From: a virus
Virus record (IMG/VR): IMGVR_UViG_3300025010_000224
Coordinates: 1-25,028 of that record
DNA length: 25,028 bases
Reading direction: 5' to 3' (one strand)
Shown: in pieces, positions 12,175 to 13,697 of the stretch
Numbering within the stretch: position 1 is the first letter of the stretch
How the letters are laid out: every line of letters begins with the position of its first letter
Program-made: the position numbers and the translations under genes
Notes under the pieces: model-generated
Database searches by the model: none
The model's input: only the letters and a program-made list of their open reading frames with translations
Told to the model about the DNA's origin: nothing

Positions 12175-12296
12175 GCAACTTAACACACTTTAGTTTGTTT
12201 TCGGGAATTGGTGGCATAGATTTAGCGCAAAGAAAAGGACTACTTGACAAAGTAGCCCAGCTCGGAATCAAAACCAACTATTCCATTATCAAATAA
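12171..12296 (+). pseudogene. 5' remnant of a cytosine-C5 DNA methyltransferase
   Basis: TTG at 12171 opens a frame reading SNLTHFSLFSGIGGIDLA, the N-terminus of a C5 methyltransferase with motif I (FSGIGG, SAM binding). Homology stops exactly after GATTTAGCG at 12227. The frame then runs into the antisense of the HNH gene and ends at TAA 12294. Nineteen codons of methyltransferase therefore remain. The same N-terminus is present again at 12889, with only synonymous differences. Confidence 0.8.
12239..12260 (-). terminator. terminator of the HNH endonuclease gene
   Basis: On the minus strand GGGCTACT pairs with AGTAGTCC (one G-U) around a short loop, followed by TTTTCTTT. It overlaps the HNH stop codon and lies exactly between the methyltransferase remnant and the HNH gene. 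Confidence 0.6.
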
Positions 12297-12806
12297 CTCT
12301 CCGATGACGTTCTCCAGTTTTCCGTGATACTCCCTATGCTTTTCCTTAGAGATTACACAGAGATTTTCAGGTCGGTTATCAGTTTTAATAAAATTTATGT
12401 GGTGGACGCATTCCGATGCCTCTAACCTATCTCTACCAACATACTTCAACGAAGTGGCAATATGCTCAAAGACATAACCGTTTTTACCAGCGTTTGGATG
12501 GATAGGATCTCTGACCATGTAGTAACCCTTAGTAACATTTCTATCAGAAAGATACTTATGACCATCAGGTGTTTTGTAATTAACTAATGTTCTTCCTCCT
12601 TTCCAAGATGAATTATTTTCTCCTAGTTGATTACGCTTGACGGCTGTCCTTGAATTGATGCCCATACGCTTAAGGTCGCGCCATACCTTATGTTGACTAA
12701 ACCCAAACATTTCCCCTATTTCAGCCTGAGACATTGATTTAGTTATGTATAAGTCAAATAGTTGTTCCTCGGTGTATGGAGCGGTGTAAGTATACTTGTT
12801 TGACAA
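12240..12806 (-). CDS. HNH homing endonuclease inserted in the methyltransferase locus
   Basis: 188 residues from TTG at 12806 (AAGGAG 8 nt upstream). N-terminal helix-turn-helix (YTEEQLFDLYITKSMSQAEI, then FGFSQHKVWRDLKRMG), as in many HNH homing enzymes. The HNH nuclease core is in the C-terminal half (ASECVHHINFIKTDNRPENL, then KEKHREYH). Free-standing enzymes of this class cut related phage genomes at the site where the gene itself is inserted. The gene is antisense to all neighbours and is flanked by two copies of the methyltransferase 5' end, so it is almost certainly a recent invader here. Confidence 0.85.
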   Translation of the reverse strand: MSNKYTYTAPYTEEQLFDLYITKSMSQAEIGEMFGFSQHKVWRDLKRMGINSRTAVKRNQLGENNSSWKGGRTLVNYKTPDGHKYLSDRNVTKGYYMVRDPIHPNAGKNGYVFEHIATSLKYVGRDRLEASECVHHINFIKTDNRPENLCVISKEKHREYHGKLENVIGELFDNGIVGFDSELGYFVK

Positions 12807-12888
12807 TATAATCACTCCTTAAATTAGTGGAATACCATAAATTAATATACCACCAATACCAGTATAAAACAAGAGGGGGTGGTCTTAT

Positions 12889-13697
12889 ATGCCAATAGAG
12901 AAAAAGCTAACACATTTTAGTTTGTTCTCAGGCATTTGACCGGAGGAATTGATTTAGCGGCAGAATGGGCAGGATTTGAGTCAGTTGGTCAATGCGAGTT
13001 TGCAGATTATCCAACCAAAGTATTAGAAAAGCATTGGCCGGATGTGCCAAGATGGAGGGATGTTCGAGATGTCACAGGAGAGTCTATTCGAGAACGAGGT
13101 ATCAAGGAAATTACACTCCTATCGGGGGGATTCCCTTGCCAGCCGCATAGCGTTGCAGGAAAACGTAAAGCGTCTGACGATGAGCGTGACCTCTGGCCTG
13201 AATACCGGCGTGTTATTAGCGAAGTTACACCAAGATGGGTTTTGGGAGAAAACGTACCAGGGCTACTCACAAGCGAGTTTGGACAATTCTTTAGAGGAAT
13301 TCTCAGAGATTTGTCCGAGTTGGGGTACTCTGTCGGATGGGCTACTTACGGGGCTAACGCAGTCGGAGCCTTTCATCAAAGATCTAGGTTATTTATTGTG
13401 GCCCACGCCAACGACCGTAGATCACAAGGAATGCTTCAAGAGCATCGAGACACTTCAAAGGCAGATGAAAAATCATCAATCAAAATGGCCTCACATGGTT
13501 TTGATGGAGCGCTTTACAAAGGGAGAATTTGGCCACGCCAAACCAGAATTCGGAGAGTGGCTCATGGGATACCCCATAGGATGGAGCGATTTAAATGTAT
13601 AGGAAATTCAGTTCCACCGCAACAATATTACCCAATACTCCAAGCTATAGCAGACATAGAAAGGAGCAATCACCATGAGAAAATTAACCAAAGATGA
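12889..13697 (+). pseudogene. cytosine-C5 DNA methyltransferase, frameshifted near its start
   Basis: ATG at 12889, with GAGGGGGTGG upstream, opens a frame reading KKLTHFSLFSGI and then stops (TGA 12937-12939). The remainder continues in another frame from about 12940: GGIDLAAEWAGFESV. All later C5 motifs are present: motif IV PCQPHSVAGKR (catalytic Cys), VI ENVPGLL, VIII QRSRLFIVAH, and IX/X RVAHGIPHRMERFKCIGNSV. The target-recognition region is short (about 40 residues). Compared with the intact copy of the same segment at 12204-12227, five extra bases (TGACC) interrupt motif I. A TTG at 12936 could start a shortened protein but would lose part of the SAM-binding loop. Probably inactive, unless the shift is a sequence error or is bypassed. 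The 3' end overlaps the next gene by 23 bp. Confidence 0.8.
13069..13602 (+). CDS. phage protein of the WPTPT/'EWLMG(F/Y)PIGW' family, overlapping the methyltransferase in +1 frame
   Basis: ATG at 13069 has an ideal GGAGGG site 9 nt upstream (13054-13059). The 177-residue product reads SYRGDSLASRIALQENVKRL, then FSEICPSWGTLSDGLL, YLLWPTPTT, and ends EFGEWLMGYPIGWSDL. These are the hallmarks of a phage protein family often found beside C5 methyltransferase genes, function unknown. The whole gene lies inside the methyltransferase coding region, one frame over. The bases 13398-13413 read VAHAN in the methyltransferase and WPTPT here; 13561-13590 read AHGIPHRMER there and LMGYPIGWSD here. Both frames therefore carry recognisable conserved motifs. 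Expression is not proven; a conserved spurious frame is the alternative. Confidence 0.6.
   Translation: MSQESLFENEVSRKLHSYRGDSLASRIALQENVKRLTMSVTSGLNTGVLLAKLHQDGFWEKTYQGYSQASLDNSLEEFSEICPSWGTLSDGLLTGLTQSEPFIKDLGYLLWPTPTTVDHKECFKSIETLQRQMKNHQSKWPHMVLMERFTKGEFGHAKPEFGEWLMGYPIGWSDLNV

Follow-up and report, generated by a model that had tools for sequence, protein, structure and literature searches.

Our data indicate that the viral DNA analysed here very probably encodes a cytosine-C5 DNA methyltransferase of the M.EcoHK31I kind, made as two chains from nested genes. As judged by sequence comparison, one chain, alpha (frame 0), would be catalytic and the other, beta (+1 frame), would carry target recognition and motif IX. 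In the proposed mechanism, alpha would form the SAM-binding catalytic domain (motifs I–VIII) and also motif X, the closing helix. Translation of beta would start internally, in the +1 frame, from a Shine-Dalgarno sequence (SD) of its own within alpha. Beta would supply the target-recognition region, with its PTP repeats, and motif IX, two elements that ordinary enzymes have on the same chain as the rest, placed between motifs VIII and X. Alpha and beta, whose binding to each other we infer, would assemble as one enzyme, and both frames would therefore be under selection. Beta would presumably set the specificity, and methylation by the phage might protect its DNA or regulate.

Organization of the locus

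The window, that is, the whole stretch of DNA analysed, is a 25,028-nt IMG/VR viral contig. Alpha was identified as a C5 methyltransferase by profile searches (PF00145, E = 5e-39; phrog_363, 9e-71). Its open frame covers positions 12936–13697 of the plus strand, which also carries the leader, the insert, beta and all motifs described below. The TTG at 12936 is merely the earliest start codon of this frame. Motifs I, IV, VI, VIII and X of C5 methyltransferases are present in it, motif I by its second half only. The frame begins in the middle of motif I because the N-terminus of alpha, which an earlier sequence-only reading of this DNA had missed, is severed by a 5-nt insert. This start-bearing N-terminus is a leader, MPIEKKLTHFSLFSGI, which begins at ATG 12889, contains the first half of motif I and ends in TGA (12889–12939). 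The insert, TGACC (12937–12941), was recognised by comparison with intact relatives; it lies between FSGI and GGIDL of motif I and contains the stop. Past it, alpha resumes in the −1 frame with GGIDLAAEW. Motif IV of alpha, SGGFPCQPHSVAG, which includes the catalytic Cys and corresponds to invariant columns in the alignment, is at 13122–13160, where the beta frame reads DSLASRIALQENV.

Beta is a nested +1-frame gene of 177 codons (13069–13602), predicted to be the subunit with the recognition region and motif IX. It starts at ATG 13069, 9 nt downstream of its SD, GGAGGG (13054–13059), and stops at TAG 13600–13602; alternative ATGs lie upstream at 13042 and 13060. The WPTPT motif of beta, part of the alignment consensus, is at 13399–13413, over VAHAN of alpha (13398–13412), and LMGYPIGWSD of beta (13561–13590) has common bases with AHGIPHRMER of alpha (13560–13589). 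The sequence-only reading had described the 177-codon gene, its start 9 nt behind GGAGGG and the shared bases at both places, and these were confirmed.

Conservation and selection of the nested frame

The set of 165 viral loci combines the hits of a beta-profile scan of IMG/VR, those of a separate scan with peptides from the alpha N-terminus, the relatives found first and two records of phages; for three of them (L001, L002 and L089) the sequence is that of the window itself or an identical one. The nested +1 pair, with both frames, was present in all 165, 80 of which had been fetched solely via alpha N-terminal peptides, and in all 80 bacterial-genome loci. The bacterial genomes are from Bacillota, Bacteroidota, Pseudomonadota, Acidobacteria, Anaerolineales, Parcubacteria, Treponema, Coriobacteriia and others. 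Beta was found outside alpha in none of the 165 viral and 80 bacterial-genome loci, and the suggestion of a separate, free-standing phage WPTPT family was thus not borne out. The beta of the window matches phrog_1008 (3.8e-16), the nearest profile for beta, as do all 15 betas scanned; neither Pfam nor NCBIfam has a model for beta. Phrog_1008 and the record of Paenibacillus phage Lily, whose 'g62 internal gene' (AJK27787.1) is a beta, are labelled only 'DNA methyltransferase' or hypothetical, with no subunit role given. The Lily pair (37796–38560) is intact. Beta is unannotated in many of the records examined, and we found nothing in the literature on the alpha/beta overlap or its origin. In the annotated Microcystis phage Mae-JY24 (L008, 2471–3664) the overlap is very long, with a beta of 322 codons nested in an alpha of 397 codons; this beta has several WPTxxA repeats, and the middle of this alpha is of low complexity.

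The +1 frame might be open and look conserved only through conservation of the alpha protein. As a null, the synonymous codons of alpha were permuted 100 times per locus in 120 non-redundant loci (12,000 shuffles). The longest open +1 frame was 216 codons as observed and 95 codons on average in the shuffles. The beta profile still gave shuffled alphas roughly 20–80 bits, and some of the resemblance is therefore forced by alpha, as expected of a by-product; however, only one of the 12,000 shuffles matched the observed beta-profile score. The C-terminal part of beta scored above all 100 nulls in 116 of the 120 loci, and the N-terminal part, which lies over motifs IV–VIII, did so in 76 of 120. 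Contrary to a by-product, the C-terminal part of beta is conserved where alpha varies.

The third codon position of alpha is the second of beta, and the first of alpha is the third of beta. Change per site at alpha third positions was 0.438 before the overlap, 0.292 within it and 0.401 after it, and the slowing of silent sites is thus confined to the overlap. Change at alpha first positions rose from 0.183 before the overlap to 0.256 inside it. Among 13 close pairs, the silent rate of alpha was 0.206 before the overlap and 0.072 inside, an approximately threefold drop (Fisher p = 6e-24). An SD at the right spacing together with a start in the beta frame was found in 43 of 100 loci, compared with 3.2 expected from synonymous resampling (13-fold). 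A by-product of alpha conservation is therefore extremely improbable, and beta is a gene under selection itself rather than a shadow cast by alpha. This upholds the earlier proposal of a second product of the locus, since the nested pair occurs in all loci, the shuffle null is exceeded and silent change is lowered. The proposed examination of the +1 frame in relatives gave the same answer: start, SD and length are kept, and silent change in alpha is reduced. Because of the shuffle null, the slowing of silent sites and the excess of SD and start, neither normal synonymous variation in alpha nor a frequently broken +1 frame, the pattern named beforehand as pointing to a by-product, describes these loci.

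Distribution of motifs between alpha and beta

Ordinary C5 methyltransferases are single chains with motifs I–VIII, a target-recognition domain, motif IX and motif X. Of 164 nested loci, 151 have a motif IX-like sequence in beta and 6 have one in alpha, and 147 have motif X in alpha. The match of the alpha profile to solved C5 methyltransferases, including M.HhaI, almost always ends at motif VIII. In the AF2 model of alpha from a relative (L005), motifs I–VIII and X are confident and positions 173–261 between them are disordered; the disordered stretch is the region over the recognition/IX part of beta. A Foldseek search with this model found M.HhaI (9.7e-17, 176 columns). Motif X of the window's alpha, FKCIGNSVPPQQYYPILQAI, is at 13590–13649, past the end of beta, and motif X of the L005 model has a pLDDT of about 95.

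The predicted motif IX of the window's beta, PEFGEWLMGYPIGWSDL, is at 13543–13593, over AHGIPHRMER of alpha. The pattern LNPx[WF]VEWLMG[FY]PxGWT, near the end of beta, fits 58 of 64 aligned betas, and the motif is spaced like the motif IX of E. coli Dcm (LTPRECARLMGF) and that of a Klebsiella phage enzyme (LSPRECFRLQGFPDSF). A match of the alpha profile in a Faecalibacterium genome (L393) contains, in the same frame, LTETESERLMGLPEGWT, which is intermediate between the beta motif and canonical motif IX. The best profile–profile alignments of beta with canonical methyltransferases fall on motif IX; they are short, with E about 0.1, and not significant alone. Searches of PDB sequences with beta, as a single sequence and as a profile, gave no credible match. 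AF2 modelled beta alone poorly (mean pLDDT 60), too poorly for a fold search that could bear independently on its assignment.

The sequence-only reading had listed motifs IV, VI, VIII and IX/X in the methyltransferase frame. IV, VI, VIII and X are indeed in alpha, but motif IX is located in beta instead. Because motif IX sits in beta in most loci, AHGIPHRMER of alpha is not motif IX, and it is largely forced by the motif IX codons of beta. From a reading of the genetic code, the codons for MGFPIGWTDL of beta, taken one base earlier, largely force [DH]G(I/V)P(N/D/H)RVDRL.

Single-chain and frame-swapped relatives

The strongest link between beta and the recognition/IX region of C5 methyltransferases is mycobacteriophage Florinda gp80 (L171). 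This single ORF contains an alpha domain, LLPTPxAxDxKG repeats, PEWMMGWPAGWVT and motif X, IGNGVCPQQ. The alpha profile matches it at 85–269, followed by beta profile positions 97–178 (E = 9e-8). Because Florinda has this block in frame between motifs VIII and X, the C-terminal half of beta is the equivalent of the recognition region and motif IX of a single-chain enzyme. The N-terminal half of beta has no counterpart in it.

Beta could instead be a separate regulatory or anti-restriction protein that arose by overprinting and acts alone or inhibits host enzymes. Its N-terminal half is under selection yet absent from the single-chain relative, and it could for that reason have a function of its own. 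However, beta was never found outside alpha in the 165 viral and 80 bacterial-genome loci, its C-terminal half corresponds, in the single-chain relative, to the recognition/IX region of a C5 methyltransferase, and alpha is without motif IX; we regard a separate protein as very improbable. Of the two functions guessed for it earlier, methyltransferase partner fits these data, whereas anti-restriction is not supported.

Beta is joined to motif X in one frame in L042, L112, L177, L180 and mycobacteriophage Twister gp79/gp78 (in gp78). In frame-swapped variants (L093, L107/L108, L110, L115 and L118) the alpha frame ends in a beta-type VEWLMGFPxGW segment. Recognition/IX blocks can therefore move between frames.

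A single chain could also result if ribosomes shifted frame, leaving alpha for the beta frame past motif VIII and returning to alpha ahead of motif X. Single-chain relatives show exactly that order, and in L093, L107, L110, L115 and L118 alpha runs into the C-terminal segment of beta in one frame. Such a route would need two shifts, and no shift site was identified; moreover, the SD and start codon that beta has for itself lie a long way upstream, ahead of motif IV, and its N-terminal half is under selection. Frameshifting is thus a very improbable account, and two separately initiated chains is the reading we prefer.

The sequence-only reading had proposed that beta arose by overprinting of the methyltransferase. 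A simple one-way origin of beta on alpha is unlikely, because the C-terminal half of beta is a methyltransferase recognition/IX region that is in frame in single-chain relatives. Only the N-terminal half of beta (over motifs IV–VIII) and the middle of alpha (over the recognition/IX region) look overprinted. In a simple history, the recognition/IX block of a single-chain gene would have come into the +1 frame; the N-terminal half of beta would then have grown over motifs IV–VIII, and alpha would have extended through the block to motif X. The order of these events is a proposal.

Interruption of motif I

Motif I of the window's alpha is interrupted by TGACC, and the insert puts the activity of the window's enzyme in question. 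IMG/VR was searched with a pattern allowing any 1–9 nt between FSGI and GGxD, and the matches were pooled with the known insert-bearing loci. This gave at least 23 distinct insert-bearing methyltransferases (at least 18 with 5 nt, at least 3 with 6 nt and at least 2 with 4 nt). The loci listed for the 5-nt insert are, besides the window (12937–12941), L090/L179, L119/L178, L172, L173, L175, L176, L177, L180, L181, L184–L189, L204, L280 and L281. Among the matches listed, 16 of 18 inserts of 5 nt start with a stop codon (TGACC, TGACT, TGATG, TAACC, TAACT, TAAGC, TAGTC and TAGTT), a share that is biased upwards because some of the 16 came from earlier patterns requiring a stop. Free of this bias, four alphas among the 165 first loci are interrupted, all at the same place, three by TGACC and one by TAAC. 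A 5-nt insert, usually beginning with a stop, is thus seen at the same codon boundary, FSGI^GGxDL, in many diverged phage C5 methyltransferases. In L240 a 6-nt insert, TAGGTT, keeps the frame but has TAG inside, perhaps because TAG is decoded as an amino acid in this phage. The C5 methyltransferase of L175, which has the insert, itself encodes motifs IX and X without a change of frame, and the insert is therefore independent of beta.

The locus may be decaying in the phage of the window, with alpha inactivated by the insert and both frames remnants. Motif I and the frame are broken by TGACC, and an HNH endonuclease gene (12240–12815, minus strand) lies just upstream of alpha, as would suit decay. 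However, both frames stay open up to their ends, inserts of this type recur, and the insert-bearing genes usually retain the leader, with its SD and start. Their downstream frame is under purifying selection: over 66 codons downstream of the insert, the window and L090 differ 9 times at the first, 3 times at the second and 35 times at the third codon position. Given this strong constraint at the protein level, we consider decay unlikely. Alpha may still be produced through a mechanism yet to be recognised; otherwise, the inserts would have to be recent and to have arisen many times over. It is possible, but doubtful, that two decoding events are layered at the locus, internal +1 initiation of beta and recoding, or termination–reinitiation, of alpha at the motif I insert.

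Three simple routes were rejected. Reinitiation at a TTG overlapping TGA fails for the TAA and TAG variants, −1 slippage at the insert lacks a slippery sequence, and an RF2-like +1 shift gives the wrong frame. When the motif I insert and the HNH insertion of L003 were searched for introns with Rfam, nothing was found at E ≤ 0.1. In L003 (2378–2851) the HNH gene starts inside the N-terminus of alpha (MSNEKNLTHFSLF), with a second copy of the leader behind it, and in L176, as judged by eye, an HNH gene is embedded in the alpha frame itself, with motif I before it and motif IV after it. HNH genes cluster at these methyltransferases, possibly through homing at motif I.

Comparison with known enzymes

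M.EcoHK31I, from a bacterial restriction-modification system, recognises YGGCCR, and M.AquI recognises CYCGRG. The small-chain gene of M.EcoHK31I lies inside the large-chain gene in another frame. In M.EcoHK31I, motifs I–VIII and X are in the large chain and motif IX is in the small chain, and the predicted target-recognition domain is placed in the larger chain (PMC3404938). M.AquI also has two subunits, split between motifs VIII and IX, with IX and X in the small chain (PMC3404938). By this description of M.EcoHK31I (PMC3404938), alpha is similar to its large chain in having motifs I–VIII and X without IX, with motif I interrupted in the window, and beta is similar to its small chain in carrying motif IX. 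Unlike in M.EcoHK31I, the recognition-like region is in beta, and the middle of alpha is short and disordered. Because the assignment of the recognition domain differs, we file the locus as the same kind as M.EcoHK31I and not as its orthologue. L042, L112, L177, L180 and Twister gp79/gp78 resemble M.AquI in that beta runs on into motif X. The window and most relatives differ from M.AquI, since their motif X remains in alpha.

If this reading is correct, the arrangement cited as a rare exception in M.EcoHK31I is frequent throughout a large branch of the C5 methyltransferases of phages and prophages, and the single-chain and AquI-like forms alongside it are a natural series for asking how a single enzyme came to be divided between two frames of the same DNA. 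Since beta has no domain model in Pfam or NCBIfam and often goes unannotated, such enzymes will probably tend to be cloned with the recognition half missing and then called inactive. The single-chain enzymes M.HhaI, E. coli Dcm and Florinda gp80 have the same catalytic domain as alpha, and Florinda gp80 also has the same PTP-type region and an MMGWPxGW motif IX, in frame there. Unlike the locus described here, these three are each one chain without a nested gene.
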